Assembly (NCBI GenBank): GCA_016931365.1
Contig: JAFGEY010000466.1
Coordinates: 1-42,231, forward strand
Reading direction: 5' to 3'
Length of the DNA stretch: 42,231 bases
Source: Anaerolineae bacterium
GTDB taxonomy: Bacteria; Chloroflexota; Anaerolineae; JAFGEY01
A program made the position numbers and the translations under genes. The notes beneath the pieces were generated by a model, which ran no database searches, was not told the DNA's origin, and saw only the letters and a program-made list of their open reading frames with translations. Shown one piece after another: positions 9,769-34,358 of this stretch (positions are counted from its first letter, which is position 1; every line of letters starts with the position of its first letter).

Positions 9769-9781
9769 ACGGGGGTTAAAG

Positions 9782-10330: not shown

Positions 10331-10391
10331 TCTGCCGGCTGGCGGTGCGATGGGGAAGCTTGAAGAGATGTAAGAGCGGGGAGGCCTTGCG

Positions 10392-11186: not shown

Positions 11187-11228
11187 CGGTGCAGGCGTGA
11201 GCAGCAATCCGGATCAAGGAATGGCACA

Positions 11229-11882: not shown

Positions 11883-11929
11883 TACTCTCAAACCTGGTTG
11901 CGGCCCGGTGAGGGTTGTGGAATACAAAT

Positions 11930-13192: not shown

Positions 13193-13319
13193 GTTCCTAT
13201 CCCGAATAAACCGGAACTGAACAGGGCTTGGCCGCTCGGAAAAATCATTGCTGTTTTGCACAATGATCTTGGGGGATAGGCCCTGATCTCAAAATCAAAA
13301 ATTCAAGGGGGTCAGGGTT

Positions 13320-14500: not shown

Positions 14501-14582
14501 ATATCTAGTACGCGATCGTGCACCGAGTTTGACCGAGTACTAGAAAGAATGAAGGCACAGTACGGAAGCAAAGGAGACGATG

Positions 14583-15482
14583 ATGAGCAAAGGGAGAATC
14601 CTGGTTGTAGAGGACGATTTCGACATCTCGAATCTGCTGCGCATCTTTTTCGACTCGCAGGGCTATGAGGTTGCCGTGGCTCCCAAGGGCAACGACGCTC
14701 TCGAAATGTGCCGCCGCAACCTACCCAACATCGTGGTGCTGGATATTCAGCTTCCAGACATCGATGGGTATGAGGTTTGCCGGCGGCTGCGTGGCAATTT
14801 GAGAACCAGTCATATCCCCATCCTCTTTCTCACCCAACGCGATGAGCGCAGTGACAAGATCGCCGGGCTGGAACTTGGTGCAGATGACTATATCACCAAG
14901 CCGTTCGACATCGAGGAGCTCAAGCTGCGCGTTCAAAACGCGATCAAACGCGCCAAGTGGGAAAATCTCACCAGCCCGACGACAGGCCTGCCCAGCGGCA
15001 AGCTGATCGAAGAACAGCTTCGCATGTTGATGCGCCGCCGGGATTGGGCCATTTTGTACGTCGGCATCAATTACATCGAGGGATTCAACGAGGCCTATGG
15101 CTTCGTCGCCGGCGACGATGTCTTTCGATTCACCGCCATGATCCTCGGCGATGGCGTCGACGAGCGCGGCACGACCAACGATTTCATCGGTCACGTCAGC
15201 GCCGATGACTTTATGATCGTCACCGACAAAGATCATGCCAGTGCGATCAGAGACTATGTCACCGAGCGGTTCAAGAATGAGGTGGGGACGTTTTATTCGT
15301 TCCGCGATCGAGAACGTGGATACATTCAGCTCAAAGATAGCGCCGGCGGAGAACGACACGAACCGTTGATGACCCTGGCTGTCGGCCTGGTGACGACAGA
15401 AACGGCAGATTTTGCGGACATTCGCGAGATCACCGAAATCGCCGCGTCCGAACGGCGCAAAGCATCTACTGCTACAGGTTGA
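14583..15482 (+). CDS. Response regulator with degenerate GGDEF domain
   Basis: A 299-residue protein. The second of two adjacent ATGs (14583) is chosen because it is 6 nt from an AGGAG site. Residues 5-120 are a complete receiver: acidic D11/D12, phosphoacceptor D54 (VVLDIQLPD), T84 and K106 (ITKPFD). A linker containing LTSPTTGLPSG, the relic of the DxLTGLxNR entry motif, leads to a GGDEF-like domain (about 130-295). There the signature reads SADDF (206-210) instead of GGDEF, so diguanylate cyclase activity is unlikely. It may bind a nucleotide or a partner. It is the first gene of the signalling locus and a natural phosphotransfer target for the hybrid kinases downstream. Confidence 0.88.
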   Translation: MSKGRILVVEDDFDISNLLRIFFDSQGYEVAVAPKGNDALEMCRRNLPNIVVLDIQLPDIDGYEVCRRLRGNLRTSHIPILFLTQRDERSDKIAGLELGADDYITKPFDIEELKLRVQNAIKRAKWENLTSPTTGLPSGKLIEEQLRMLMRRRDWAILYVGINYIEGFNEAYGFVAGDDVFRFTAMILGDGVDERGTTNDFIGHVSADDFMIVTDKDHASAIRDYVTERFKNEVGTFYSFRDRERGYIQLKDSAGGERHEPLMTLAVGLVTTETADFADIREITEIAASERRKASTATG

Positions 15483-15632
15483 CGATGATCCGGGGGTGTC
15501 TGTCTCATAGTTTGGGGCAGCAGCGGTGATCATATAGACGGGCGGCAGTGATGTGGTAAATGTGCTGATTTTGATCGAGTCAGTATTGGGGGGAGAAAAG
15601 CCGGATCGGCTTGGGGATTGTCTGATCGGAGA

Positions 15633-15660
15633 TTGGCTCGCCCACGACAGTGCGAGCCAA
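15633..15660. repeat. 9-bp perfect inverted repeat before the giant kinase gene
   Basis: TTGGCTCGC (15633-15641) and GCGAGCCAA (15652-15660) flank a 10-nt loop. No T-run follows, so it is not a standard terminator. It lies in the 241-nt gap between the response regulator and the giant kinase (15483-15723), where I see no other gene. It may be an operator or an mRNA structure. Confidence 0.45.
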
Positions 15661-15723
15661 CTCTGAGTGCCTTCATCGTCTCAAAAATAATAGATCTGTT
15701 TGGATCAAGTTGAGGAAATTGTT

Positions 15724-18700
15724 GTGAGCTTTTGGCCCGCTTGTGAGTCAAATAGCCGATCTCATCCCTCCCTGATGATAACAATACTGGTTGTTTTGTG
15801 GGTCGCGACAACTGCCGGGCTGTACATCATTTTAGGGCAGGGAGGTAGTGCCTGGCAGTGGGAACCCACGATAGCCTTAGGATATTTGGTGCCGGTGGGG
15901 CTGGCTGCTTTGGTTTGGGGCATGACCGGCGCGATGGTCACGGCAACGTTCAGTGTTGCCGCGTTGATCGTCGCGGCGGGGTGGCTTTGGTCGGCATCTG
16001 CCGGATCGGGCCTGGTCATTGGACTGGGCATCTATGCATTGATTTTGCTGCCCCTGGCCTACCTGGCAGGAAGGTGGTCTGATTGGCGACATCGCCAAAC
16101 TGCACATTACCAACAGACAATGGCTGCGCTGAACCAGCGCGTCCAGGAACTGTCGGCTATCGAGGAAGTGGATCGCGTTCTGGGGACCACGCTCGATCCC
16201 CAGCAGGTGCTCGATCTGATCCTGGAACACGCTGTGCATTCCGTCGAAGCGACGGTAGGTGTGATCGGTACGCTTTTCGCCGACACGCAACATTTGACTA
16301 TGCGCGCAACTTTGGGCCTCGATCCCCAGCAGGAAAAGGACCTTTTGTCGGCGCCGTGGCCGGTGACACAGGGTGTGATGGGCCGTGCGATCAGCAGCGG
16401 TCAATTCGCACTGGTTTCGGATGTCGCCCTGGATTCCGATTATGTGACCATTGTCCCGGCAGTTCGTTCTGAACTGGCGGTGCCGCTCAAGACCCAGGAT
16501 CGCACGATCGGCATCCTGGATCTGGAAAGCACCCGAGAAAACGCATTTGACGAACGCGCGGTTGGGTTTGTGCAGCATTTGGCCGAACACGCGGCGATTG
16601 CCCTGGAAAGAGCCCAGCTTTACGCAGTCAGTGAGGAACGCAGCCGAGAGGCCCAGGAGTTGTACGATATTGCCACCCTGATCAGTTCGACGCTCGATCT
16701 GGACGAATTGTTGAAAAAGGTCATCACTCGTTCTGCCGAGTTCTTGGGCGTCGACCAAGGTGTGATTCTGCTCATTGATCCGGTCAACCAGGTATTAGAA
16801 CCGCATCCGGCAGGCGTCTATGGCGACGATCCGGCATCGGTGCACATTCGCATCCCGGCCAACGAACAGGTTCGTTCCGGCCCGCTGTTTCGAGGCCAGG
16901 TGCTCACCTCTGACGACGCAATGATTGATTCACGGACTTTGGGCGCGTACCGTCCGCTAGTGGAAGCATTTCAGGTTCATACTTTGCTCTCGCTGCCGCT
17001 TCGACTGGGGGATCGGTATATCGGCGAAATTCATCTGTGCAACAAACGCCGCGGACGATTTACCGACAATGATGTGCGCCTGATGAAGACGATTGCCTCG
17101 CACTCGACCGTGGCCATCGTCAATGCACAGATTTACCAGTTTACGGATCGCCAATTGCGCACGCGCGTCGACGAACTGATGGCAATGCAACGCATCAGCG
17201 GGCAGTTGAACGCCACCCTCAACCTGAATCAGGTTTTGGACGTGGTCATCGGCGAAGCGTTTGCCATCACCGGGGCCACACACGGGTACATTGCGCTGGC
17301 TCAGGAATGGACCGGTGCGTTTCGACCGATTGCCCGGCGCGGTTATACAGATTCAGAGTACGAGAAACTGCAAGATGCCTGGATCGAGTGCGGTGCAGAT
17401 GTCGCGCAGACCGTTGTGCAGGCCAAACGTTCCGAGATCGTGGTCGATGCAGCGCACGAAGGCCGCGAGTTGTGTGTGGTCAAACGGGCGCGCTCGGCGC
17501 TGATTGTGCCCATCTTTTACGAAGATGAGGTGGTGGGGTGGATTCACCTGCTCCATGTCGAGCCAGCAGCATTTGACGAGGCGCATCAGGCATTTGTCGA
17601 ATCGTTGGCTGCGCAGGCCACCCTGGCCATTCGCAATGCACGTTTGTATGAGGCCCAAATCAGGCAGCGCGATCTTTATCTCAGACGCGCGGAACAGATC
17701 GGTCGCCTGTCATCGATCGGCAATGCTTTCCGTCTGGCGAAACCGCTTCACGAGTTGATGCGGATGACGGCCGAGGCGATCAGCGAAGGCGTTGGATTCA
17801 AGGCAGTGTTGATCAGCCTTGTTGATGGGGAGCCGCCGACACTGAGTCGTGTTGCGGCGGTGGGCGTCCCCGATTCGATCTTTAACAAAATGAAACAGGT
17901 TCGTTTGCCCCTGGACACCGTTCGGACGGTGATGCGCGACGAGTTCTTGCTCGGCCAGTCTTACTATATTCCGCACCAGCACAAAGCCGTCTGGGAGAAC
18001 ACGATCGATGTCTACACCTTTACCCAGATCGAGTCAGGACAGGGTTGGCATCCGGAAGATGTGCTTGTAGTGCCGATGTACGGCATCGGGCAGCGCATCC
18101 TGGGGATCATCACCGTCGATCAGCCGCTGGACAATCGCGTGCCCGATTTGTCGGTGGTGGAAACGCTCCAGGTTTTTGCGCAGCAGGCAGCGACGGCAGT
18201 CGAAAATGCCAGGCTGTACCAAGATTTGCAGCGTCGCGTCGAAAACCTGGCGCTGCTCAATCAGTTCGGTCAGGCCCTCGCTACCGGGTTGGAACCTCAG
18301 ACCATTGTGCAAGAGGTCGTTTCGGCGGCAGTCGAGCTGGTGCATTGTGAGTATGGCGCTTTGTGCATCTGGGATGCCGCGACTGATCGAATAACCGTGT
18401 CTGCTGTCCATGGATTTGCCTCTGAAGTCGAATCGGCGTTGCCGAATATGCTGTGTGATGTGCTCAAGCCGTTGGTCATTCACGGGGGAAATGCGGTTGT
18501 TGTTGCCAATGCAGGCAGTGATGCCCGGTTCAGTCGCCTCACGCTCGGGCCGTTCAACCTGCGCTCCATCGCGGCTGCACCGATGGCCGACGGAAAAGCA
18601 GCCAGCGGTATGCTCGTAGTAGCATCGTCATCGCCGGCGGAATTTAGCCGCACCGATCAAGTGCTTCTGTCAACCCTTGCCGATCAGGCGTCGGTGGCGA

Positions 18701-21700
18701 TCCAGAACGCGCGTCTCTATTCTAGCATCGCCCGCCGCGCAACAGATATGGAAACCCTGAACGACATCGGCAAGACGGTGATTTCGAGCCTGGATATGGA
18801 CACCACGCTGAGCCTGATTATGGCCAAAGTGGGCGAGGCTTTCCGCGCCGAGTCGGGCTCGTTGTTCTTGATGCAAGACGGTCTACTCAAACTTCGCGTG
18901 GCATTTGGCCCGGCCAGCGACAAGATCAGTGGTTTAACATTGGAACCGGGGCAGGGGGTTGTCGGTTGGGTAGCTGAGACCGGCCAAAGTACGCTGGTAC
19001 CTGATGCCAAGTCGGATCAACGGCACCTGGTCGACGTGGACCGTTCATCAACGTATCGGACGCGCTCCCTGATTTGCGCGCCGATGAAGGGCCCGGACGG
19101 CCAGATCGTGGGCGTGTTGGAACTGTTGAATCCACTCGGCGGCGGTTCCTTTACGCAGCATGACGTGGAACTGCTCGAATCGGTGGCCACGTTTGCCGTG
19201 GTAGCCATCGAAAATGCCAATCTGTTTGCGCAACGCGAGCGCAAAATCGTCGAGCTGAATATTCTCAACGAGATCGGGCAGGCTTTGAGTGCAACGTTGC
19301 AGCAGGATGATCTGGTTCAATTGATCTACCAGCAGGTTGCCCGGGTGATGCCTGCGGAGAACTTTTACATTGCACTATATGATGCCGAAAGTGACGTGGT
19401 CACTTTCCCGATCGCCTACGAAGCCGGTCAGCAGATGGCTGGACCCAACGTTGAGCACACGCCGCCAGATTGGTTGCCGCGCCAGGGGCGCAAAGGACTG
19501 ACCGAATACATCATTCGTTCCGGTCAGATGGTGTGGCTGCCGGATCGATTCGGCGAACGGCTGGAAGGCTTGGGCCTTGAAAGGATCGGCATACAAGCGC
19601 TCTCCTGGCTGGGCGTGCCGATTCTGTCCGGTGATCAGGCATTAGGAGTGATCGCTGTTCAGAGTTATGACCGCGAGTATGCGTATGACGAGGACCATCG
19701 CGATCTGTTGCGGACTATTGCCGGACACGCTTCAGTCGCAATTCGTAATGCACGCTTGTTCGACCAGATCAATCGCATCACGCAAAACTTGGAGCACCTG
19801 ATCGCCGATCGCACCACAGAACTGGCACAGGCCAACATCGATCTGGTGGCCCAGCGCGATCAGTTGAACACGTTGTATCAGATCACGCGTGAGCTCTCCG
19901 GCAGCCTGGAACCGGATCGCATGCTCAACCGCGCGCTGGTGTTGATCAATCAGGCAATTGGCGTCCATCAGGGTTACATTCTGCTCCACGATTCCGAAGC
20001 AGGCGATCTGGTTTGCAAAGCGGCACTTGGCGAAAAAGGTGCAGCGCTGATGGGACGACCGCTGTCTTTCAAGGAAGCGGAACAAGAAGAATTGATCGGT
20101 TGGTTGATGTCGCACCGCGATTCGATCCGCCTCGGCGATTTGACCGTCAACGAGCAGTGGAAAACGCTCGACGATCTGGAAGGCGAATATCGATCTGTGC
20201 TGGCCACGCAACTGATTTCTTCCGACGAAGTGGTGGGTGCGATCTTGCTCTACCACCAGGATGTCGATCACTTTGAACTTGAGCACCAACGCCTGCTCGA
20301 TGCGATCTCATCTCAGCTTGGGGTCATGGTCAGCAACACCGAAATGTTCCGTCTCTTGCGCGAGGCAACGGGACGCCTGGGTTCGATGTTGCTGGTGCAG
20401 CAGTTGGATGCGGCCAAAAGCCAGGCCATCCTCGAAGGTGTCGCCGATGGTGTGATGGTGATGGATGCCAAAGGCAAAGTGACGCTCTTTAACGCGGCAG
20501 CGGAACGGATTCTACAGACGCCGCGCGCCGAGGTAATCGGGCGGCAGGCCTCCGAGATGTCGGGCTTTTATAACCTGACCGGCACCTCGTGGACCGAGTT
20601 GGCCGAGCGGTGGGCCGGATTCAGCCCACTGAGCCGCTCGTCCGAAGCGCCTGAACCAGCCTACGAAGAGCGCTTTGAGGTTCAACACCGAATGGTGAGT
20701 ATGCGCGTCGCACCAGTGATCCGCCAGGATGTTTTTGAAGGCACAGTAGCTGTATTCCGCGACATTACCAAAGATGTCGAGGTGGATCGGCTCAAGAGCG
20801 AATTTGTGTCGATGGTATCGCACGAGTTGCGCACGCCGATGACCTCGATCAAGGGATACATCGACCTGCTTTACAACCAGATGGCCGGGCCGCTGACCGA
20901 TGCACAAAAGCGGTTCTTGCAGATCGTCAAAGGCAACGCCGACCGCCTGACCGGCTTGGTCAACGATTTGCTCGATATTTCGCGCATCGACACCGGGCGG
21001 ATCAGCCTGTCGGTGCAGCCGACCAGCCTGGTTGCAGTAATCGACAGCGTGGTCGCCAATCTGATGCCCAATGCACGCAACAGAGGACAGCAACTGAAAT
21101 CGCTGGTTCAAGGGCCGCTGCCTTTTGTCCGAGCCGACCCGGCGCGTATAACGCAGATTCTGACCAATCTGATCGCCAACGCGATCAACTATACGCCTAC
21201 TGGCGGAGAGGTCACGGTCGATGCCGAGATGGTCGATGGGATGGTCTGCGTTCACATCACGGATAACGGCATCGGCATCTCGGAGGAAGACCAGAAAAAG
21301 CTGTTCACCCGCTTTTTCCGATCCGAAAACGAACTGGTACAGGCCAGCAGCGGAACTGGACTGGGACTGGCGATTGCCAGATCATTTGTCGAATTGCACG
21401 GCGGCAAGATGTGGTTTGAGAGCGAGTTGGGCAAAGGTACGACGTTCAGCTTTACCTTGCCTGTCTCGAATGTCGAACAGGAAGTTGTCCAAGAGCGTAC
21501 ATTCAAGACAATCAGCTATCGCGCCGAGGACAAACACATTCTGGTGGTCGAAGATGACAACGAATTTGCCAGCCAGATTGCCGATCAACTTCGCAGCCAA
21601 GGGGGGTATCGCATTCACATTGCGCGCACCGGGCTCGAAGCGTTGGACTATTTGGGCGAAAAGAACCGCCGCGTCGATTTGATCACTCTGGACCTGCGTC

Positions 21701-22287
21701 TGCCCGACCTGAATGGATTTGCCGTTCTCGACAAAATCAAGGGAGACAAGGCCCTGGCCGACATCCCGGTGGTGATCGTGTCAGTTTTGCAGCCCGGCAA
21801 AGATGCGACGTATCTGGGCGCGCGGGCTTACCTTCCCAAGCCCATCGCCCGGGGCGAGTTGTTACAGACGATCAACCGCATCCTGTCGCCCGAGTCCACG
21901 GTGCTCTTGGTTGAGGACGACCGGCAATTGTCCGATATGCTGCGTGAAGCTTTGGAGCGCTACGGCTTTGTCGTTCTGGTCGAGTATAACGGGCGACAGG
22001 GATTTAATACAGCCAGGGCCGAACAGCCAGGGATGATCTTGTTGGACATCAATCTACCCGGTCTGGATGGGTATGAGGTTTTAAGTAAACTCAAGAACGA
22101 TCCGGAGACCCGCGACATTCCAGTGATTATGGTCAGCGGCAGCACAGCCAACCTGGAAGACAAGCGCGAGCGCGTGCTCAAAATGGGGGCGGCGCAATTT
22201 CTGCCCAAACCGCTATCCATAGACGATTTGGTACTCGAGATTCGGAATGCAGCAGGACAACAAACAGTCGCAGCATCGGCAAATTGA
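15724..22287 (+). CDS. Giant hybrid histidine kinase: TM, 8 GAF, PAS, HisKA, HATPase, 2 REC
   Basis: A 2187-residue sensor kinase. GTG 15724 is chosen for the GAGGAAA site at 15712-15718. Residues about 18-118 hold about four membrane segments. Eight GAF-like domains follow at about 143-299, 312-473, 486-642, 659-833, 843-999, 1013-1166, 1178-1348 and 1383-1543. Most end with the same (A/V)xxNA(R/Q)LY-type helix, and a coiled coil lies before the last. Next come PAS (1566-1683), HisKA with SHELRTP (His1700), HATPase with NLIANAINYT, DNGIGI and GTGLGLAI, and two receivers with phosphoacceptors Asp1990 and Asp2108. It probably integrates many small-molecule or redox cues at the membrane. Its 3' end overlaps the RsbT-like gene by 41 nt, indicating translational coupling with the partner-switch genes. 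Confidence 0.93.
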   Translation: MSFWPACESNSRSHPSLMITILVVLWVATTAGLYIILGQGGSAWQWEPTIALGYLVPVGLAALVWGMTGAMVTATFSVAALIVAAGWLWSASAGSGLVIGLGIYALILLPLAYLAGRWSDWRHRQTAHYQQTMAALNQRVQELSAIEEVDRVLGTTLDPQQVLDLILEHAVHSVEATVGVIGTLFADTQHLTMRATLGLDPQQEKDLLSAPWPVTQGVMGRAISSGQFALVSDVALDSDYVTIVPAVRSELAVPLKTQDRTIGILDLESTRENAFDERAVGFVQHLAEHAAIALERAQLYAVSEERSREAQELYDIATLISSTLDLDELLKKVITRSAEFLGVDQGVILLIDPVNQVLEPHPAGVYGDDPASVHIRIPANEQVRSGPLFRGQVLTSDDAMIDSRTLGAYRPLVEAFQVHTLLSLPLRLGDRYIGEIHLCNKRRGRFTDNDVRLMKTIASHSTVAIVNAQIYQFTDRQLRTRVDELMAMQRISGQLNATLNLNQVLDVVIGEAFAITGATHGYIALAQEWTGAFRPIARRGYTDSEYEKLQDAWIECGADVAQTVVQAKRSEIVVDAAHEGRELCVVKRARSALIVPIFYEDEVVGWIHLLHVEPAAFDEAHQAFVESLAAQATLAIRNARLYEAQIRQRDLYLRRAEQIGRLSSIGNAFRLAKPLHELMRMTAEAISEGVGFKAVLISLVDGEPPTLSRVAAVGVPDSIFNKMKQVRLPLDTVRTVMRDEFLLGQSYYIPHQHKAVWENTIDVYTFTQIESGQGWHPEDVLVVPMYGIGQRILGIITVDQPLDNRVPDLSVVETLQVFAQQAATAVENARLYQDLQRRVENLALLNQFGQALATGLEPQTIVQEVVSAAVELVHCEYGALCIWDAATDRITVSAVHGFASEVESALPNMLCDVLKPLVIHGGNAVVVANAGSDARFSRLTLGPFNLRSIAAAPMADGKAASGMLVVASSSPAEFSRTDQVLLSTLADQASVAIQNARLYSSIARRATDMETLNDIGKTVISSLDMDTTLSLIMAKVGEAFRAESGSLFLMQDGLLKLRVAFGPASDKISGLTLEPGQGVVGWVAETGQSTLVPDAKSDQRHLVDVDRSSTYRTRSLICAPMKGPDGQIVGVLELLNPLGGGSFTQHDVELLESVATFAVVAIENANLFAQRERKIVELNILNEIGQALSATLQQDDLVQLIYQQVARVMPAENFYIALYDAESDVVTFPIAYEAGQQMAGPNVEHTPPDWLPRQGRKGLTEYIIRSGQMVWLPDRFGERLEGLGLERIGIQALSWLGVPILSGDQALGVIAVQSYDREYAYDEDHRDLLRTIAGHASVAIRNARLFDQINRITQNLEHLIADRTTELAQANIDLVAQRDQLNTLYQITRELSGSLEPDRMLNRALVLINQAIGVHQGYILLHDSEAGDLVCKAALGEKGAALMGRPLSFKEAEQEELIGWLMSHRDSIRLGDLTVNEQWKTLDDLEGEYRSVLATQLISSDEVVGAILLYHQDVDHFELEHQRLLDAISSQLGVMVSNTEMFRLLREATGRLGSMLLVQQLDAAKSQAILEGVADGVMVMDAKGKVTLFNAAAERILQTPRAEVIGRQASEMSGFYNLTGTSWTELAERWAGFSPLSRSSEAPEPAYEERFEVQHRMVSMRVAPVIRQDVFEGTVAVFRDITKDVEVDRLKSEFVSMVSHELRTPMTSIKGYIDLLYNQMAGPLTDAQKRFLQIVKGNADRLTGLVNDLLDISRIDTGRISLSVQPTSLVAVIDSVVANLMPNARNRGQQLKSLVQGPLPFVRADPARITQILTNLIANAINYTPTGGEVTVDAEMVDGMVCVHITDNGIGISEEDQKKLFTRFFRSENELVQASSGTGLGLAIARSFVELHGGKMWFESELGKGTTFSFTLPVSNVEQEVVQERTFKTISYRAEDKHILVVEDDNEFASQIADQLRSQGGYRIHIARTGLEALDYLGEKNRRVDLITLDLRLPDLNGFAVLDKIKGDKALADIPVVIVSVLQPGKDATYLGARAYLPKPIARGELLQTINRILSPESTVLLVEDDRQLSDMLREALERYGFVVLVEYNGRQGFNTARAEQPGMILLDINLPGLDGYEVLSKLKNDPETRDIPVIMVSGSTANLEDKRERVLKMGAAQFLPKPLSIDDLVLEIRNAAGQQTVAASAN

Positions 22288-22666
22288 GGTCCGTGTTGAG
22301 CGTGACGTGTTGATCGCGGCGGCTGCAAGCGCTGCGATGGCGCGCGAGGCGGGCTTTTCGGTAACAGACTGCGCGCGGATCGAGACGGCGGTCTCAGAGT
22401 TGGCACGAAACCAGGTCGTACACGCGAGCGGCGGGGTGCTAGATTTGGCGATCATTTCCAATGGAAGGTTTCTGGGACTGCGCGTTTGCGCCGTCGACTC
22501 GGGGCAAGGCATCCAGAATGTGAGCGCTGCGCTCCAGGACGGGTACACGACCCGGAACACGCTGGGGATCGGGCTGGGCGTGGCCAAACGAATGATGGAT
22601 GATTTTTCCATCCGTTCCCATCTGGGGTGGGGCACGCGGATCACAGCCGTCAAGTGGAAGCGGTAG
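22247..22666 (+). CDS. RsbT-like serine/threonine switch kinase (GHKL ATPase)
   Basis: A 139-residue single-domain GHKL ATPase of the RsbT/RsbW type. N-box ETAVSELARNQVVHA (Asn55), G1 box DSGQGI (84-89) and G2 box LGIGLGVAKRMMDDF (106-120) are all in place. The last matches the RsbT form (GLGxGLxxxKRLMDEF) better than RsbW. RsbT phosphorylates STAS-domain proteins (RsbS, RsbR) to release the stressosome. The start lies inside the 3' end of the giant kinase gene. The RsbX-type phosphatase gene follows after 10 nt. A candidate STAS substrate is encoded at 31325-32167. Confidence 0.9.
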   Translation: MQQDNKQSQHRQIEVRVERDVLIAAAASAAMAREAGFSVTDCARIETAVSELARNQVVHASGGVLDLAIISNGRFLGLRVCAVDSGQGIQNVSAALQDGYTTRNTLGIGLGVAKRMMDDFSIRSHLGWGTRITAVKWKR

Positions 22667-22676
22667 CAGTAGCGCG

Positions 22677-23246: not shown

Positions 23247-23280
23247 GCACCAAGATTTCAGGCTTGGGCTAGGATATCGT

Positions 23281-26655: not shown

Positions 26656-29600
26656 GTCTGCGATCGTCTGTACAGGCTAGATCATCCGGAGCAGCGATTC
26701 AGATCGGTGCTTTGCCGGATGGTCGATCCCGCGTCGCCGAATTGGAGGTGCTACAACGGATCGGCCGCGCGCTCAACTCGACACTGGATGAAAAAGAAAT
26801 CCTGCACCTGCTGATCGAAGAGACGGTCGATGTGACACCCGCCGAACGGGGCAGCGTGTTTCTGTACGACCTGGATCAGGCATGCCGCCTGCCGCAGGCG
26901 TGGTTCGGCTATACACCGGAGCAAGCGGACGCGCTGATAGGTTTGGGGCAGGACTGTGCGCACGGGATTATCCACCGGGTATTCGACAGCGGACAGATCG
27001 CAGTGACGCAAAATGTCGATCTGGCCCCAGACTATGTGCAGATTGTGCCCGATACCTGCTCAGAGCTGACCGTGCCCATCCGTCACGGCCTCGACGTTGT
27101 CGGCGTGATCGACCTGGAGAGTTCAGAACCGGATGCCTTTGATGAAGGCACGCAGCGCTTTGTGTTGGCGATTGCCGAACAGGCCGGAGTCGCTATCGGC
27201 AATGCGCGGCGATTTGCCGAACAGGTGGCGCGAGAGCAGGCTGTAACGTGGCGCAACGAACAGTTGCGTCATTTGCTCGAAATTTCGCGTATGTTCGGAC
27301 AACAACATGCGCTGGATGATTTGCTCGACATCGTCGTCCAGGCGATCCCGGAAACAGTTGGTTTTAATGTGGCCCTGCTCAGTCTGGTCGGAGGGAACCC
27401 GCCCCTGGTGCACCGGGCGGCCGCAGCGGGCATCCCATTGGCCGATTTTGTGAGCTTGCAGCAGGTCACGCAGCCTTTGGATGTGTTGGAACGCACCTTG
27501 AAAGACAAATATCGGATTGGCCAATCCTACTTTTTTCCACACCAACAGCGCGCCGAGTGGGACGACGAGTATACACATACTGTGCTCGACGATGCGGGTA
27601 ATTGGCAGGAAGGCCATTGGCACCCGGATGATATGCTGCTCGTGCCGCTCAAAGACAGCGCCGGCGCGCTGCTCGGGCTGATCTCGGTCGATGACCCACA
27701 AAATGGCCTGGTGCCCACGCAAGATACAATCCAGACCCTGGAATTGTTTGCCCACGAGGCCGCGCTGGCGATTGAGAACGCGCGTCTGCTCGACCAGACA
27801 CAGCAGCACGTGGCCGAATTGGAATTGCTCCAGCAGGTCGGATTCCAGGTCGCGTCATCGCTTGACTTGACCACTGTTCTGAAGACCATTGTCGCCAGCG
27901 CGTTGCAGCTTGTCCCTGCCAGCGACGTGCGCATTTACCTGTACGATCAGTTGACTGCCAGGTTTGAGTGCGGCACGCAGAAATCGCGCGGCGATGCGGT
28001 TTCCAGACCGATGACCCCGCCGAGGCCTGATGGATTTACGGCTCGCGTAGTCCAGGCGAGTGAGATGCTGGTCATCAACGATGCGCTGAATCACGAATTG
28101 TACACCCGTCCTGAAGCAAAAGGGTGGAATATGCATGCCATCGCCGGATTCCCGCTCAAACGTGCCGGCGAAATCCTGGGCGTGATGGATGTTTCATTCT
28201 TTTACGAGCATCGACTTACACAAAAAGAGTTGGATTTGCTTACCTTATTGGCCAACCAGGCCGCAGTATCCATCGACAATGCGCGGCTGTATGAGCACGC
28301 CAAGCGGCGCGCAAAGCATCTAGAAGCACTGTGGCACATCAATCAGCAGTTGGCGACGATCCGCGACTTTGACGAACTGCTGAGCCAGGTGGTGCAGATC
28401 ATTCGCCGCTACTTTGACTATGATCATATCAACCTCTACCTGGTCGAAGCACCAAACGGTACGCTGATTTTGCAGGCGCATTCCGGCCAAAGTGAGGTGG
28501 ATGCAAGTCAGGCGGCGCACATTCCCGCCGACCGGCCCAAGTGCATCATTGCCTGGGTGGCGACAAACAACAAGCCGCTGCTACTCGAAGCAGAGATGAT
28601 CAGCCCGGTGCCATATCCCTCGCCGATGATGCAGTTGCTCGGCACGCGCTCCGAGTTGGCCGTGCCGTTGCACATTGGCGAACGGGTGGCGGGTGTGCTG
28701 GACGTGCATAGCTATCGCGCAAATGCTTTGGGCCGGGAAGATTTATCCGTCGTCCAGTCGTTGGGCGCGCAGCTCTCGGTGGCCTTTGAAAACGCCCGCC
28801 TTTATGATGAACTGGAGCTGCGCGTGCTCAATCGTACGGCAGAATTGGCCGACGCGCTCAAGCAGCAAGCGCTTCAAGTCGATAAAACGCGCGCTATTGT
28901 AGAAAGCATTTCGGACGCGGTGATCGTCTTTGACCCGCAGGGCAATGTGGTGCTGGTCAATCCGGGCGTTGAGCGCACGTTTGGGGTGTCACATCGTCAG
29001 TGGATGAATTGTAACCTGAACGGTTTCCCAATGCCCAGGCTTGCCAGTCGGGATATCAATACAATGCGCGCCGTATTTGAGGCCGTGCGCAAGGCGCGTG
29101 AAGAACTTGCTGAAGGGAAAGACTTGGTTGTCAAAACCTTTCAAGTGCCGGGGCGTGTGATTGCTGCCAGCTTTGCTTCGGTGGTGTTGCGCGATCTCGA
29201 TCCGCTGAACGTGGTTGCTGTGTTCCGGGACATCACCCGTGAGGTAGAGATCGACCGGATGAAAAGCGAGTTTATCGCGATGACCGCGCACGAACTGCGC
29301 ACACCGATGACGTCGATCACTGGCTATGTTAACTTGCTGACAACTGAAAAGTCTGGTCCGATCAACCATGAACAGCAGCAGTTTTTGCGCATCGTCAGCT
29401 CGAACGCAAACCGGCTGATGACCCTGGTCAACGACCTGTTGGACATTTCCAAGATCGAGGGAGAAGGGCTCAGGCTCAACCTGGCTTCAGAGTCGATGGC
29501 CGATATTGTGGCCGAAGTCGTCGTGGCGCTCCAGCAGCAAGTCGAAGAAAAAGGGCAGGTGTTGGTCTTGGATGTGCCCACCGATCTGCCCGAGATCCAG

Positions 29601-29957
29601 GCCGACCGTGATCGGATGATCCAGGTGGTGATCAATCTAGTCAGCAACGCATCCAAATACACGCCTCAAGGCGGCAAAGTCACGGTGAAGGGCTGGTGTG
29701 AAAACGGCCACCTGATGCTCGACGTGCGTGATACGGGCATCGGCATTTCGCCGCAAGACCGGGAGCGCTTGTTCACACGCTTTTTCCGGGCCGACAATGC
29801 GATCGAGACACAAGAGGGTGGTACGGGTCTGGGATTGGTGATCACGCGCGAGATCGTCGAACGACACGGAGGGCGAATTGAGGTCGAAAGTAGGTTAGGC
29901 GCGGGCAGCACGTTTAGAGTGGTTTTGCCGCTCGATCTGTCTCCACGACTCAACTGA
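26652..29957 (+). CDS. Histidine kinase: 4 GAF, PAS, HisKA, HATPase
   Basis: A 1101-residue soluble sensor kinase. Its ATG overlaps the previous stop (ATGA), so the two are translationally coupled. GAF-like domains lie at about 29-190, 210-375, 390-550 and 565-725. PAS (about 750-865) ends in VVAVFRDITREVEIDRMKSEFI. HisKA has TAHELRTP (His880), with Ala replacing the more usual Ser before His. HATPase (about 985-1095) has NLVSNASKYT, DTGIGI and GGTGLGLVITREIVERHGG. Unlike its two paralogues it has no receiver; a free receiver is encoded 40 nt downstream. The second GAF belongs to the same distinctive subtype as GAF4 of the giant kinase (see findings). Confidence 0.92.
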   Translation: MSLRSSVQARSSGAAIQIGALPDGRSRVAELEVLQRIGRALNSTLDEKEILHLLIEETVDVTPAERGSVFLYDLDQACRLPQAWFGYTPEQADALIGLGQDCAHGIIHRVFDSGQIAVTQNVDLAPDYVQIVPDTCSELTVPIRHGLDVVGVIDLESSEPDAFDEGTQRFVLAIAEQAGVAIGNARRFAEQVAREQAVTWRNEQLRHLLEISRMFGQQHALDDLLDIVVQAIPETVGFNVALLSLVGGNPPLVHRAAAAGIPLADFVSLQQVTQPLDVLERTLKDKYRIGQSYFFPHQQRAEWDDEYTHTVLDDAGNWQEGHWHPDDMLLVPLKDSAGALLGLISVDDPQNGLVPTQDTIQTLELFAHEAALAIENARLLDQTQQHVAELELLQQVGFQVASSLDLTTVLKTIVASALQLVPASDVRIYLYDQLTARFECGTQKSRGDAVSRPMTPPRPDGFTARVVQASEMLVINDALNHELYTRPEAKGWNMHAIAGFPLKRAGEILGVMDVSFFYEHRLTQKELDLLTLLANQAAVSIDNARLYEHAKRRAKHLEALWHINQQLATIRDFDELLSQVVQIIRRYFDYDHINLYLVEAPNGTLILQAHSGQSEVDASQAAHIPADRPKCIIAWVATNNKPLLLEAEMISPVPYPSPMMQLLGTRSELAVPLHIGERVAGVLDVHSYRANALGREDLSVVQSLGAQLSVAFENARLYDELELRVLNRTAELADALKQQALQVDKTRAIVESISDAVIVFDPQGNVVLVNPGVERTFGVSHRQWMNCNLNGFPMPRLASRDINTMRAVFEAVRKAREELAEGKDLVVKTFQVPGRVIAASFASVVLRDLDPLNVVAVFRDITREVEIDRMKSEFIAMTAHELRTPMTSITGYVNLLTTEKSGPINHEQQQFLRIVSSNANRLMTLVNDLLDISKIEGEGLRLNLASESMADIVAEVVVALQQQVEEKGQVLVLDVPTDLPEIQADRDRMIQVVINLVSNASKYTPQGGKVTVKGWCENGHLMLDVRDTGIGISPQDRERLFTRFFRADNAIETQEGGTGLGLVITREIVERHGGRIEVESRLGAGSTFRVVLPLDLSPRLN

Positions 29958-29997
29958 GTGTCTTGTCAGAAAACGTTTATTGATGAGTGAGGAAACT

Positions 29998-30375
29998 ATG
30001 GCCTTGATACTGATTGCAGAAGACGAAAAAGATATCCGAGAACTGATCCAGTTCAGTTTGACCTTTGCCGGGTTTGAAGTAGTAGCGGCCTTGAATGGCA
30101 AAGACCTGGTCGAAAAGGCTAAATCGATGACGGTTAAGCCCGATCTGATCATGTCTGACGTGCGCATGCCCCAAATGACAGGCTATGAGGCCTGTGCCGA
30201 GATCAAAAAAATAGCTGGACTAAAGGACATTCCAGTGGTCTTTTTGTCGGCCAAGGGGCAAGAGTCGGAAATTCAGACGGGGCTGGAGTCTGGCGCGCAT
30301 GAGTATATTCTCAAGCCATTTGCGCCCGACGAATTGATCAGACGCGTGACTGAACTCGTCAAAAAAGCAAAATAA
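29998..30375 (+). CDS. Stand-alone receiver (CheY-like response regulator)
   Basis: A 125-residue single receiver domain. ATG 29998 (MALILIAEDEKDIREL) is chosen because a GAGGA site lies about 5 nt upstream; in-frame starts at 29980 and 29983 are also possible. Acidic pocket E8/D9/E10, phosphoacceptor D54 (IMSDVRMP), S84 and K106 (YILKPFAPDEL) are intact. There is no output domain. It probably takes phosphate from the receiver-less kinase encoded just upstream and signals through protein contact. The hydrolase-like gene follows 57 nt later. Confidence 0.92.
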   Translation: MALILIAEDEKDIRELIQFSLTFAGFEVVAALNGKDLVEKAKSMTVKPDLIMSDVRMPQMTGYEACAEIKKIAGLKDIPVVFLSAKGQESEIQTGLESGAHEYILKPFAPDELIRRVTELVKKAK

Positions 30376-30432
30376 TCCCGAATCGGGTCGGATGACTTGA
30401 TCGGTATTGGGTTTGGCGATTGAGGTTCTGGT

Positions 30433-31218
30433 ATGAGTGCCCTGGTTTTAGATGGTGGCGTCGTACATTATGAATACTTTGGACGCGGCCGCCCGCTCAT
30501 TTTCATTCATGGGTGGTTAGGCTCGTGGCGCTACTGGGTTCCGACGATGGACGAGTTGTCGGAGACCAAACGAGTCTACGCATTTGACCTGTGGGGGTTC
30601 GGCGATTCGGACAAGTCACGGATGCGCTACACGGTGGACAATTACGTCGAATTGTTGCACACCTTTGTCGACGAATTGGGCGTATTTGGGCAGGTTCCGC
30701 TTGTCGGGCACGCACTGGGCGCGACGGTCGCCGTATCCTTTGCCAACACCTATCCCGAATATGTAGATCGGGTGATGGCGGTCAGTCTGCCTCTGGTCGG
30801 AACGGCAATCAACCGCCGGTTCCTGTCTGGCGGCGGCTTTTTGGACAAAATGCTGGGCCGCTCGCCGATGGCCGGATATGACACCGTGGAACAGGAAGCC
30901 GGCCGTGCTTCTCCCGACGCGATCACCCAGAGCGTTCAGTCGGTGATGAGCATCGACCTGAAACCGATCATTGCCTCACTCCAAGTGCCTTTGTTGACCC
31001 TCTATGGCGAGAGTGACAATGTGGTGACGCCGGCCACCGAGCAGGAATTTGCCGGGCTGGATGCGTCCGTGCGGATGATCACGATGCCTGAGGCACGGCA
31101 TTTTCCGATGCTCGACCGCAGCAGCCAGTTCAACCGCTTGCTGCTCGACTTTTTAGAGTGTGGAAATGATGTGAGCAGGTTGGAGCTCAAGGAAGAGTGG
31201 CAGCGCCGCATTCGATAA
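30433..31218 (+). CDS. Alpha/beta-hydrolase-fold protein lacking the nucleophile serine
   Basis: A 261-residue paralogue of the hydrolase encoded at 10392. The two align over their whole length: VHYEYFGRGRPLIFIHGWLGSW against VHYEMDGRGQPVLLLHGWINSW, and ARHFPMLD against SRHFPMLD. The nucleophile elbow reads VGHALGA, with Ala94 (codon GCA) where the paralogue has Ser96. The other triad members are retained (Asp195 in GESDNVV, His223 in ARHFPML). Hydrolysis by the usual mechanism is therefore unlikely. A ligand-binding or scaffolding role is plausible; RsbQ, an alpha/beta hydrolase that works with a PAS-phosphatase in sigma-B control, is a family precedent for such proteins in signalling. It is the last gene before a strong terminator. 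Confidence 0.9.
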   Translation: MSALVLDGGVVHYEYFGRGRPLIFIHGWLGSWRYWVPTMDELSETKRVYAFDLWGFGDSDKSRMRYTVDNYVELLHTFVDELGVFGQVPLVGHALGATVAVSFANTYPEYVDRVMAVSLPLVGTAINRRFLSGGGFLDKMLGRSPMAGYDTVEQEAGRASPDAITQSVQSVMSIDLKPIIASLQVPLLTLYGESDNVVTPATEQEFAGLDASVRMITMPEARHFPMLDRSSQFNRLLLDFLECGNDVSRLELKEEWQRRIR

Positions 31219-31257
31219 TCGAAGAAAACCTGGCTGCGTCAATCCGCGAAACATAGA

Positions 31258-31296
31258 GGCCCGCGCCGGTCGACCGGCGCGGGCCTTTTGTGTTTT
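31258..31296 (+). terminator. Rho-independent terminator with perfect 28-bp palindrome
   Basis: A self-complementary GC-rich sequence spans 31258-31285 (arms GGCCCGCGCCGGTC and GACCGGCGCGGGCC). TTTT, G, TGTTTT follows. It closes the plus-strand signalling locus and lies between convergent genes. On the opposite strand the T-run is poor. Confidence 0.9.
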
Positions 31297-31324
31297 CATG
31301 AGGTGACAGGCATCTGAACTGCTT

Positions 31325-32167
31325 TTATAATGCTTGCGCCGCGTATTCGAGTCCTGCCTGTAAGTTGCTGTGGATGGACAAGGTGCGAAGGTCCAGGTCT
31401 GAACTGCCCAGAGTCTCGGCCACTTGAGCTTGAATACCAGCCAGGATGGGTTCTGCGCCCAGCAAGCACATCGCGTCGATGGCCTGGCGCAGCGCATCGA
31501 CGGCTTCCAACGATAACTGACTGACACCGGTCAGATCGAGGATGACCAGCCGGGCGCGGTGGGCCTTGATCCCACTGAGGAGCGCGTCGGCGATCGCAGC
31601 CATCCGACTCTGATCCAGACTGCCTACCAGCGGCAGCAAAATCGTCTGCCTCATCACCGGAAGCACCGGGCTGGACACCTCGGTCAGAGCAAGTGTAAGC
31701 GCGCGTTGTTCCTGCAGGGCAGCCTCCAGTGCCTCTTCACGGTGTTGGGCAGCAGTGGTGTCCGTCAGTTGCAGCAGGGCGCCCATTTTCCAGCGCCAGA
31801 GGGTATAGATGGCGCTGGCGCGCAGCGTGACGTGTCGATGAACGCCCTCGCCCGTCAGCTCCAGGGCCTGCGTCCAGTCTGAGTGAGTGTCAATATTTTC
31901 AGGTTCCAGAGTGGTTTGCCCGGCAAAAAGGGATGACCAGGGACGGCGAATGACCTGCCGGGGATCGACGCCCAGCAGGTTTGCTGCACTGGTGTTGAGG
32001 TGAAGCACGCGTCCTTTACGGTCGAGGAGAATGATGCCATCAGCAGCATGGTCGATCAGGTGGCGTCCGGCGGCCTCAAGCGGGGCAAACCACAGACGGC
32101 GCGCAGCGCAAACCAACAAGCCAAGGCCAAGGCCTGTCGCTGTAAAAATCAAGAACCTGATGTCCAT
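31325..32167 (-). CDS. Membrane-anchored PAS-STAS (RsbR-like) protein
   Basis: A 280-residue protein. ATG 32167 (MDIRFLIFTATGLGLGLLV) is chosen for the AAAGGAG site upstream; a longer frame would overlap the previous gene. One N-terminal membrane segment (about 4-22) is followed by PAS (about 32-140: HLIDHAADGIILLDRKGRVLHLN...) and a coiled helix (REEALEAALQEQRAL). The STAS domain (about 164-280) is of RsbR type: SSPVLPVMRQTILLPLVGSLDQSR, LVILDLTGVSQLSLEAVDAL, LGAEPILAGIQAQVAETL. Candidate phosphorylation sites for the RsbT-like kinase are Thr213, Ser216 and Ser219 around the DLTGVSQLS loop. A membrane-bound RsbR-like protein is unusual, since RsbR is normally soluble. It lies 46 nt downstream of the AAA-PD40 gene, in the same unit. 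Confidence 0.87.
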   Translation of the reverse strand: MDIRFLIFTATGLGLGLLVCAARRLWFAPLEAAGRHLIDHAADGIILLDRKGRVLHLNTSAANLLGVDPRQVIRRPWSSLFAGQTTLEPENIDTHSDWTQALELTGEGVHRHVTLRASAIYTLWRWKMGALLQLTDTTAAQHREEALEAALQEQRALTLALTEVSSPVLPVMRQTILLPLVGSLDQSRMAAIADALLSGIKAHRARLVILDLTGVSQLSLEAVDALRQAIDAMCLLGAEPILAGIQAQVAETLGSSDLDLRTLSIHSNLQAGLEYAAQAL

Positions 32168-32213
32168 TGCCGGCGAATCTCCTTTGTTGGCTGACTCAGT
32201 GCAAGCTTGACCT

Positions 32214-34358
32214 TTATTGACCGACGTATCGCCAGCAGGGCGAGATGTTATCATAGTCGTCATTGGTCAGGCGGATCAACTCGCGTCCGTCCCGGCGGAC
32301 GCGTAACAGATTGTGGTTGCCATCGGCGGCAGTGTATGAGACAAAGATCAACTCTTCCGAATACTGCGTCCACACCGGTTGAAAATCATTCGCATACCGC
32401 GAGTTGGTCAGATTGGTCTGGGCCGATCCATCAACGCGCATCACAAATATGTCTGACTGTTCGCCGATCAGGGTGGTAAAAGCAATCCACTGCCCATCAG
32501 CCGACCAGGCCGGATCGTATTCATCCATCTCGCTGTGAGTAAGCTGGGTCAGTTTGCGCGTGTCCAGATCGAGGATAAACAGGTCGGCATCGCCGTTACG
32601 GCGTGAAACAAAAAGGATGTGTTTGCCGTCGGGCGACCAGGTCGGCGAGAAATCACTCTCGGGATGCTCGGTCAAGCGGACAAGGTTCGCGCCGTCGGCA
32701 TTGATCGCATAGACTTCCCAGTTTTCGTCTCGATAAGACGAAAAGACCACGCGCGCGCCATCGGGTGACCAGGTAGGCTGCCAATCGTGCGCCGGGTGTT
32801 GAGTCAGATTGACCGACCCACTGCCGTCGGCGTTCATAATGTACACCTCGCGGTTGCCATCACGCTCCGAGGTAAAGAGGATGCGCCTGTCGTCGGGTGA
32901 CCATTTGGGCGTGCGCTCGTTCGAACCAGTTTCAGTCAACCGCAAACGCCGTTTGGTGCTCGAATCAAGAGCATAGATTTGCCATACATCATCTGCCGTT
33001 CGGCGCGACATCAACAGCAGGTCGTATCCGGGCAGGGCGATGGTCGGCCCGGGCGTAGGAGAAGTCGTCGAATTGGCGGCCACCGACGTGCCGGGCAGCG
33101 GCGTTGCTGTCGGCATTGCTGCTGTCACAGCAGATGTCGGCGTCAATGTGCGTCCGAAAACATTTCTCAGCGCCGGCTGCAGGGCCACAATGACGAGTAC
33201 GACCAGGATCGCACCGATGCTGGCCCACAGCGGCCAGCGATCCAGAAAACCCGACGGGGATCGATCTTGGTGTTTTGGTGTCCAAAATCGTCGGCGCAGC
33301 AGGTCTTCGGGCGGATAGTGTGCGCGCAACCACAGCCGGAACAGTTCGAGTTGGAAGCGATAGCTGTTTGTGCCCAGTTTTTCCAAACTCTGCTGCTGCG
33401 CCAGAGCTTCCAGCGTATCGACAACCTGATCCAGAGGGATGGTTTTGCCCCACCGCGCGCAGGCTTTCTCCAGGTCGTACTGGGTGCTGATGCCACCCTG
33501 GCCGCGCAGCGCGCTGAATGCAGCCAGCAGAGCTTGTTGCAGCGGAGAAGCCGCATTCCAGATGCGCTCAAACTCGGGAATAGAGGTATCCAGCAGCTGC
33601 TCAAGCGCTTCCTCGACGTCGGTAGGCACGATCTGGGTGCGCAGCGTGCAGCATTCTAGCAGGTGCTGGCAGAATTGCTGGATGTAATGCGGGTGGTTGG
33701 ACGTGATTTCGAGTATGCGGCGGATCGTCCAGGGATCGACGGGGGATTTGGCCGCGAGCAGATCTTTGACCATCCTTTCCGCAGACTCGTTGTCCAGCGG
33801 GCCCAGCTGGATCGAGGGAGGCAGCGGCTGCCCTTGAGGGAAACGGGAAACAAGCTGGGCGCTTTGATCGACGGCCAGGATGGTCGGCATTTTGGCGGTA
33901 AGCAATGCTGTAATGCCTTCAGGTGGCGCACGATGGGCATGGTCAACGGCCAGCACGATCTGCTTGCCGTCGAGCGACCAGGTTATGGCATTAACATAGG
34001 CATGCCAGGCTGCAAGCGGGTCTTGTTCAAAGGCATCTTGTTGAGGTAGCTCCGGGTCGATGCCAATTTTTTCCCGAATGACACCGCTCACCTGCGCAGC
34101 AAGCCCGGAGAGCAGGTGGGATGTATCCCACCCATCGATGTGTGCCGCATCCAGATAGATACCCAGGTAGCCGTACGGTGGGTGCAGAGCCAAGTGCTGC
34201 AGCAAGGCGCTCTTGCCGATATAGCGCGGGCCATAGATCGCCAGCACGGCCTGGTCGTGCGACAGCCGATCCGCCAGCCAAGCAATTTCGGTCTGCCGGC
34301 CGTAAAATGACGTTTTGTTTTGCGCGGGCGAGTTTGCGCCGTAGTTCGAGCTTGTCAT
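32214..34358 (-). CDS. AAA/STAND-type ATPase fused through a TM segment to a PD40 beta-propeller
   Basis: A 714-residue protein. The N-terminal P-loop ATPase (about 16-270) has a FYGRQTEIAWL opening, Walker A GPRYIGKS (43-50) and Walker B IVLAVDHAH (Asp139). A winged-helix-like part (about 270-345) follows. A single membrane segment (about 376-396) leads to a Pro/Thr-rich linker (TPTSAVTAAMPTATPLPG). The C-terminal propeller (about 440-714) has TolB/PD40 repeats, for example RTPKWSPDDRRILFTSERDG, DWQPTWSPDGARVVFSS, DFSPTWSPDGKHILFVSRRNG and YDPAWSADGQWIAFTT. The topology suggests a cytoplasmic ATPase controlled by an external propeller. A good promoter lies upstream and the RsbR-like gene lies downstream, so it is probably the sensor half of that unit. 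Confidence 0.88.
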   Translation of the reverse strand: MTSSNYGANSPAQNKTSFYGRQTEIAWLADRLSHDQAVLAIYGPRYIGKSALLQHLALHPPYGYLGIYLDAAHIDGWDTSHLLSGLAAQVSGVIREKIGIDPELPQQDAFEQDPLAAWHAYVNAITWSLDGKQIVLAVDHAHRAPPEGITALLTAKMPTILAVDQSAQLVSRFPQGQPLPPSIQLGPLDNESAERMVKDLLAAKSPVDPWTIRRILEITSNHPHYIQQFCQHLLECCTLRTQIVPTDVEEALEQLLDTSIPEFERIWNAASPLQQALLAAFSALRGQGGISTQYDLEKACARWGKTIPLDQVVDTLEALAQQQSLEKLGTNSYRFQLELFRLWLRAHYPPEDLLRRRFWTPKHQDRSPSGFLDRWPLWASIGAILVVLVIVALQPALRNVFGRTLTPTSAVTAAMPTATPLPGTSVAANSTTSPTPGPTIALPGYDLLLMSRRTADDVWQIYALDSSTKRRLRLTETGSNERTPKWSPDDRRILFTSERDGNREVYIMNADGSGSVNLTQHPAHDWQPTWSPDGARVVFSSYRDENWEVYAINADGANLVRLTEHPESDFSPTWSPDGKHILFVSRRNGDADLFILDLDTRKLTQLTHSEMDEYDPAWSADGQWIAFTTLIGEQSDIFVMRVDGSAQTNLTNSRYANDFQPVWTQYSEELIFVSYTAADGNHNLLRVRRDGRELIRLTNDDYDNISPCWRYVGQ

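Follow-up and report, generated by a model that had tools for sequence, protein, structure and literature searches.

In Vibrio vulnificus, the stressosome genes RsbRSTX stand together with a two-component module, VvD1/VvD2 (PMC9237108, PMC10014275), and deletion of RSTX and deletion of the downstream sensor kinase VvD1 reportedly give similar phenotypes (PMC10014275). How stressosomes signal to histidine kinases is an open question: eleven downstream architectures have been distinguished for RSTX modules, and an RsbU_N domain is present in some of the downstream proteins and absent from most of them, V. vulnificus included (PMC9237108). RsbT activates RsbU through the N-terminal domain and linker of the latter, and histidine kinases with RsbU N-domains are encoded in rsbT operons (PMC12143880); in Moorella thermoacetica, the stressosome has been linked to a diguanylate cyclase, MtG (Quin 2012, cited in PMC12143880 and PMC4976288). 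Here, we analyse a locus of a 42,231-nucleotide stretch of DNA from an Anaerolineae bacterium of the phylum Chloroflexota (the whole stretch is called the window below), in which an RsbT-like kinase (RsbT2), an RsbX-like phosphatase and a hybrid histidine kinase (HK2) are encoded one after another. Synteny and homologues point to the same phylum.

On balance, we lean towards reading this locus as the output part, in a reduced form and wired to two-component kinases, of a stressosome of Chloroflexota, with RsbT2 modulating HK2 (RsbT2 and RsbT1 are our labels for two branches of RsbT, RsbT1 being the RsbS-linked one). An earlier note on this DNA had described a single locus fusing two-component phosphorelay with stressosome-type partner switching. 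All the genes it listed were found in their places, and the 41-nucleotide overlap of the RsbT-like gene with that of the giant kinase HK1 is exact; the genes do adjoin one another, but as two convergent transcription units split by a terminator:

14580..15482, forward strand: REC-GGDEF protein with a degenerate GGDEF motif (Pfam; 69% identical orthologue in L191)
15700..22287, forward strand: HK1, hybrid histidine kinase of giant size with GAF repeats, PAS and two REC domains; its start codon is uncertain
22247..22666, forward strand: RsbT2, GHKL kinase resembling RsbT and placed in a separate branch (Pfam, alignment, trees)
22677..23246, forward strand: RsbX-like PP2C phosphatase (likely start 22677; PDB and Pfam matches)
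23281..26655, forward strand: HK2, hybrid histidine kinase of 1124 amino acids (likely start 23281), in the order predicted RsbR-type N-domain (about residues 1-135), helical linker, GAF domains, PAS, HisKA, HATPase, REC, REC
26652..29957, forward strand: HK3, GAF-PAS histidine kinase without receiver (43% relative in L190)
29980..30375, forward strand: free receiver (57-59% identity in L190 and L191)
30433..31218, forward strand: alpha/beta hydrolase, nucleophile Ser replaced by Ala (Ser kept in L190 and L202)
31255..31288, both strands: terminator-like inverted repeat between the convergent operons (15 and 13 pairs)
31325..32167, reverse strand: membrane PAS-STAS protein with an RsbR-type STAS domain, 280-residue start chosen (profile, PDB, alignments)
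32214..34358, reverse strand: AAA/STAND-type ATPase with a PD40 propeller, upstream of the PAS-STAS gene (domain scan)

A conserved unit of RsbT2, RsbX and HK2

The window RsbT matches PF13581 (E 4.5e-11) and has a GHKL ATPase fold in which the N and G boxes are intact, residues E51, N55, D84, G86, G88, G107 and G109 being invariant across 27 aligned RsbT rows; its gene is preceded by HK1 and does not directly follow an rsbS. The phosphatase is a single-domain PP2C protein closest to RsbX, with best PDB matches to 3zt9 (E 1.9e-26), which we take to be the Moorella phosphatase, and to the RsbX structure 3w40 (E 2.8e-19), and with a PF07228 match at E 4.1e-14. It is 53-56% identical to the proteins of L122, L190 and L191, and its start was placed at 22677, where the proteins of the relatives likewise have an ME-G-V start. 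A stressosome core, in the sense of RsbR plus RsbS with Ser/Thr acceptors, was not found in the window: tblastn with the RsbS, RsbR and RsbT of seven relatives and a Pfam scan of 30 open reading frames (ORFs) gave no RsbS and no further RsbR, STAS queries matching the PAS-STAS gene only (E <= 1e-3) and the RsbT query additionally matching the ATPase domain of HK1.

The order RsbT-RsbX-HK2, with an RsbT of the window branch, recurs in 14 further Chloroflexota loci (L123, L124, L125, L128, L129, L131, L132, L133, L134, L136, L145, L149, L155 and L157). Neither RsbR nor RsbS was seen in these loci, for which between 2.0 and 9.9 kb of DNA ahead of RsbT was covered. RsbS lies directly before an RsbT at another locus in 13 of these genomes (L140-L144, L146-L148, L150, L152, L154, L156 and L158), and in the fourteenth, G376, one RsbT only was found. 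RsbT2, RsbX and HK2 are a conserved gene unit. The earlier note had suggested a search of related genomes for such linkage, and it is conserved: histidine kinases stand with a kinase and a phosphatase of stressosome type both in these 14 loci and in the syntenic relatives described below.

This order bears directly on a rival explanation, which sees in RsbT2 either a relic or one more stressosome kinase of the ordinary sort, directed at an RsbS encoded elsewhere; RsbT2 would have no contact with a histidine kinase and would owe its position to history. The ATP-binding boxes of RsbT2 are intact, RsbR and RsbS are present in the syntenic relatives and the RsbT-histidine kinase contact is without direct evidence, all of which count in favour of this rival. 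The persistence of the order in 14 loci, with RsbR and RsbS not seen nearby, argues instead for a functional unit, and fusions of an RsbT-like domain to the N-terminal end of the adjacent kinase occur in other lineages (6 rows); we consider the rival unlikely.

As to sampling, RsbT was found in 46 of 400 Chloroflexota genomes at E <= 1e-20, with no identity above 48%, and, within the class of G092 (the genome with the best match, 47%, to the window's NFACT protein, itself found in 91 of 201 genomes at E <= 1e-30), in 22 of 396 genomes at E <= 1e-15, with no identity above 50%; at the latter threshold, none of the 7 genomes of the order of G092 had an RsbT. A repeat draw of the phylum gave RsbT in 1 of 383 genomes at E <= 1e-30, namely G001, which is the only genome of its order and class in the collection searched, the order of G416 comprising 2 genomes there. 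Of the 80 loci listed by a scan of genome contigs, 58 were Bacillota by title. The regions around part of the RsbT matches were compared (20, 19 new and 12, plus 3 flanking pieces), and the close relatives P0005-P0022 are represented as proteins only.

Two relatives are syntenic with the window and carry two RsbT genes, RsbT-a and RsbT-b. In G416 (L204, L191 and L202), the order is DUF4388 protein (59% identity), hydrolase (52%), V4R protein (66%), hexapeptide protein (59%), acyl-ACP-reductase-like protein (68%), REC-GGDEF protein (69%), HK1 (38%), a further kinase, RsbT-a, RsbR, RsbS, RsbT-b, RsbX (56%), HK2 (48%), a large HK1/HK3-like kinase, receiver (59%), hydrolase (53%) and V4R. In G442 (L190), whose contig starts at a kinase end, the DNA further upstream lying off the contig, this end is followed by RsbT-a, RsbR, RsbS, RsbT-b, RsbX (54%), an HK3-like kinase (43%), receiver (57%), hydrolase (53%) and V4R. 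The stretch RsbR-RsbS-RsbT-b of both relatives is missing from the window, which we infer to hold a reduced form of the locus because the full plan, RsbT2-RsbR-RsbS-RsbT1-RsbX-kinase, exists in relatives: in both of these genomes and possibly in one more, which belongs to another class. In this third genome, G001, one contig ends with kinases, RsbT2, a GAF-rich protein with an RsbR-type STAS domain and RsbS, and another begins with RsbS, RsbT1, RsbX and HK2, an exact 141-nucleotide end being common to both. Among contigs C237, C53 and C425, two ends share these 141 nucleotides with the start of the third, inside the RsbS gene; the sharing is an unresolved repeat of the stressosome cassette, and adjacency is ambiguous because a third contig end has the same 141 nucleotides, but the arrangement agrees with the plan of G416 and G442.

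The distinction of the two RsbT branches comes from trees built on 134 columns, which are few, and with long branches flagged. The larger tree has 117 rows: RsbT-like domains with a hidden Markov model (HMM) score of at least 60 from 68 chosen loci, plus 26 database rows, among them the window's own RsbT (the weaker L193 6639 and L198 18479 and the duplicate of L122, L002, were left out). In it, the RsbT2 branch (36 rows, support 97/89) unites the window, P0005-P0022, the RsbT-a of L190 and L191 and 15 Chloroflexota copies without RsbS directly upstream, and the RsbT-b of L190 and L191 group with RsbS-linked copies of Chloroflexales-type genomes within a branch of 26 rows (98/90). The trait of having RsbS directly upstream does not form one branch overall (11 changes in the tree), and four of the rows that have it sit beside RsbT2, in a neighbouring branch where tandem and fused RsbT are also found. 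In a tree of 51 rows, RsbT2 comprised 27 rows with a support of 99/92, and RsbT1 16 rows with 99/94. The window RsbT does not group with the RsbS-linked RsbT of its phylum, and forcing its clade together with RsbT1 was 16 log-units worse (p-AU 0.048, a borderline value, for groups named after the first tree). Position 46 is Glu in 36 of 36 RsbT2 and Ala in 22 of 22 RsbT1, and GLP is changed to GLG at 111 in the window clade, in L190/L191 and in 1 of 15 other RsbT2. RsbT2 as a recombination hybrid of RsbT-a and RsbT-b was considered and rejected, the window having the RsbT2 majority residue at the 12 diagnostic positions listed and its RsbT grouping with RsbT-a in the tree.

Other Chloroflexota (L137, L138, L139, L198, L199, L200 and L201) also have a pair of RsbT genes, for the most part in tandem, close to RsbS and RsbX. 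A further arrangement, RsbR-RsbS-RsbT-(RsbT.RsbX fusion)-(RsbT-like domain.kinase), occurs in a cyanobacterium (L080), a planctomycete (L011) and Chloroflexota (L192, L194, L196 and L197). The RsbT-like domains N-terminal on these six kinases form one branch (100/100) across three phyla, and such fusions suggest a joint action of RsbT-like domains with histidine kinases in some systems, which stops short of proof of a contact at the window locus.

The N-terminal domain of HK2 and the proposed signalling route

The earlier note had assigned an RsbRD-like domain to the N-terminus of HK2. Against RsbRD_N (PF14361), this region scores 15.0 bits in the window and 19.2 bits in the relative P0124, below the cut-off of 24.3, but HK2 of the syntenic G416 passes with 25.4 bits; profile and predicted fold together support a domain of RsbR/RsbRD type. 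The predicted fold is globin-like and helical with a match to the RsbR N-domain, as in RsbR-type non-haem globin domains, and the structure models indicate that HK2 starts with such a domain over about residues 1-135. A PDB sequence search with it gave nothing at E up to 10, and RsbU_N-type folds were not noticed among the matches listed for it, which proves nothing.

Under the reading we favour, RsbR, RsbS and RsbT1 would be encoded elsewhere in the host genome, and RsbT2 would be held by STAS proteins in the resting state. Stress would free RsbT2, which would then alter the activity of HK2 through the N-terminal domain and the helical linker, as RsbT does with RsbU, the direction from RsbT2 to HK2 being one that we infer. 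Phosphoryl groups would pass to the REC domains of HK1 and HK2, to the free receiver and to the REC-degenerate-GGDEF protein, and RsbX would dephosphorylate the STAS proteins, thereby resetting the switch. RsbT2 retains the catalytic boxes and Asp98, which we take to be the equivalent of Asp92 of Bacillus subtilis RsbT. Asp92 is in contact with the RsbU linker (PMC12143880). Asp98 has no discriminating value, because it is nearly invariant in all the RsbT aligned.

Several observations weigh against this reading. The structural match of the HK2 N-domain ties with phycobiliproteins and globins, Foldseek with the first model of the domain gave no match at E <= 0.001, and the domain scan of HK2, up to an E of 1, did not list RsbU_N (weak matches can be lost). 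RsbT is known as a partner of RsbU_N and not of RsbR N-domains. Among the 58 Bacillota loci searched, the HMM of the HK2 N-domain matched an RsbR in only 4. The RsbT directly before RsbX is RsbT1 in G416 (L191), in G442 (L190) and in contig C425 of G001 (L122), and in G442 RsbX is followed by the HK3-like kinase, with no HK2. Finally, pairwise BLAST scores do not separate RsbT-a (48% over 126 residues; 106 and 110 bits) from RsbT-b (42-44% over 133-135 residues; 105 and 111 bits) as relatives of the window RsbT, the separation coming from the tree and the diagnostic residues alone.

Globin-fold sensor domains occur on histidine kinases, and HK2 could also be a sensor kinase of globin type that works on its own, sensing a ligand by its RsbR-like domain, while RsbT and RsbX serve an unrelated STAS target. 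The non-haem globin sensor proteins 3pmc and 3pmd are in the fold list of the HK2 N-domain, and the domain is found outside the locus as well: a second G416 kinase (L206, 898-2754) has an RsbR-type N-domain (107.5 bits), and PF14361 matches occur in further ORFs of G354, G360 and G310. Against this, the kinases found by the HMM in the loci searched adjoin RsbX, with the exception of L206, an adjacency that is partly by construction because these loci were chosen for RsbT. We regard such a stand-alone role as quite improbable.

A bolder version of the reading we favour, tentative and rather doubtful, is that of a two-kinase stressosome in Chloroflexota, in which RsbT1 would be the core kinase of RsbS and RsbR and its paralogue RsbT2 would dock on, and switch, a hybrid kinase carrying a transplanted RsbR sensor domain. 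If so, the window would hold the output half on its own. In the literature searched, we met no description of such a split of RsbT paralogues into core kinase and output activator.

The PAS-STAS protein and the other genes

The membrane PAS-STAS protein offers another rival, advanced in the earlier note: RsbT would phosphorylate it (at Thr213, Ser216 and Ser219), making it the point where phosphorelay and partner switching converge. Its STAS domain is of RsbR type (PDB RsbR chains, best E 6.5e-16), no second STAS gene turned up in the window, and database searches gave 12 matching proteins, the window's own included. The three residue numbers fit the 280-residue start (245, 248 and 251 in a 312-residue frame), Thr213 being the Thr of a DLTG motif. 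The positions aligned with Thr171 and Thr205 of RsbR, its canonical phospho-acceptors, are occupied by Gln and Leu in the window; across the window and P0130-P0134, they read Gln, Gln, Gln, Glu, Ala, Ala and Leu, Leu, Ala, Ala, Ala, Pro, respectively, with the Ser/Thr of the VD(S/T) motif being kept in P0135 and in the RsbR and RsbS of L190/L191. All six proteins (window and P0130-P0134) keep Ser219, which precedes the canonical acceptor position by one residue and may be a displaced, unusual acceptor. A relative of the PAS-STAS protein, P0132 (51%), lies on a contig of 65,893 nucleotides. The contig of the HK2 relative P0125 has the same length, which makes linkage of both in a single close relative probable.

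Against the convergence stand, besides the two replaced acceptors, the operon structure, since the terminator puts the PAS-STAS gene outside the RsbT operon, and the syntenic genomes G416 and G442, where the gene was not found beside the locus. Terminator-like sites are numerous in the window (27, versus 17.6 +/- 4.3 in shuffled sequences), but the repeat at 31255-31288 has 15 pairs and the next longest stems have 7. We therefore disfavour the PAS-STAS protein as a canonical substrate and hold convergence on it to be quite improbable; it would at most be an accessory that resembles RsbR but lacks the usual acceptors, rather than a classical substrate, and, judging from the relatives, the window RsbT looks likely to pair with another STAS protein.

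All three kinases (HK1, HK2 and HK3) have intact H, N, G1 and G2 boxes. As regards the phosphorelay of the earlier note, kinases and receivers are present, but no HPt family was found among the 30 window ORFs scanned (an HPt protein may be encoded elsewhere). Likewise, the REC-GGDEF protein has the domains attributed to it, with GGDEF above the Pfam cut-off (28.7 versus 23.8 bits), but the motif is degenerate, SADDF in place of GG(D/E)EF in the window and AANDF in the 69% identical relative of L191, which makes production of cyclic di-GMP unlikely. A diguanylate cyclase output was accordingly rejected, and the protein is, from its motif, probably a non-catalytic response regulator. REC-GGDEF relatives with GGDDF (33-34% identity) lie near HK2 on the opposite strand in 2 of the 14 RsbT2 loci (L125, 14955-16535; L129, 15701-17020), some of these loci ending at HK2.

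The hydrolase had been noted as dead. Its motif is GHALG in the window, without the catalytic Ser (GxSxG) of an RsbQ-type hydrolase, but GHSLG in both syntenic relatives (L190 and L202), so that the loss of Ser is, among the three seen, particular to the window, and a dead hydrolase as a conserved feature of the locus was rejected. In the relatives, a second hydrolase-V4R pair closes the locus (L190, 8070-8741; L202, 886-1629); at that place, the window has the hydrolase and no V4R.

Synteny with G416 extends upstream to about position 8935, with the same gene order and 52-68% identity:

8935-9768, forward strand: DUF4388 protein (59% in G416)
10392-11186, forward strand: alpha/beta hydrolase with a GHSMG motif (52%)
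11229-11882, forward strand: V4R protein (66%)
11915-13192, forward strand: hexapeptide protein (59%)
13320-14405, forward strand: acyl-ACP-reductase-like protein (68%; PDB 6jzq at E 2.5e-33; TIGR04058 at 144.8 bits, under the cut-off)

These neighbours (8935-14405) may be part of the same regulon as the signalling genes. Elsewhere in the window, a GH88-family ORF (39251-39946) spans profile positions 31-218 of 352 and may be truncated or frameshifted.

Comparison with described systems

The general kind of system, a stressosome-type switch wired to two-component kinases, is known. No papers on RsbT in Chloroflexi or Chloroflexota were found in the mostly open-access literature searched (surveys of 2005 and 2017 perhaps cover the phylum), in which two papers pair the stressosome with Chloroflexi and none with Chloroflexus; the phrase "two RsbT" did not occur in the 12 papers listed for it.

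The locus resembles that of V. vulnificus in having RsbX and another stressosome gene ahead of a two-component module, in having no sigma-B cascade and in that a c-di-GMP-type regulator is suspected downstream. It differs in that V. vulnificus has RsbR and RsbS in the operon, with one RsbT described, whereas the window is without RsbR and RsbS, has an RsbT of the second branch, carries an RsbR-type domain on HK2 and has a degenerate GGDEF. With Moorella, it would share a stressosome adapted to a non-sigma output (3zt9 being the best PDB match of the window RsbX), although the Moorella output is an active cyclase. The histidine kinases with RsbU_N encoded next to rsbT (PMC9237108, PMC12143880) have, like HK2, a stressosome-related helical domain and a linker at the N-terminus of a kinase; that of HK2 is, in contrast, of RsbR/RsbRD type with a predicted globin fold, RsbU_N not being listed for it. 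The fold and profile of this domain resemble those of the RsbR/RsbRD_N sensor domain (PF14361; PDB 2bnl and 3zta), except that in RsbR it is attached to a STAS domain and here to a hybrid kinase.

RsbT2, RsbX and HK2 offer a small three-protein system for a direct test of signalling from RsbT to a histidine kinase, and the unit suggests that RsbT paralogues divide core and output roles. Relative to the systems above, what is new here is the separate RsbT branch, the missing core genes, the RsbR-type domain on a kinase and the degenerate GGDEF.

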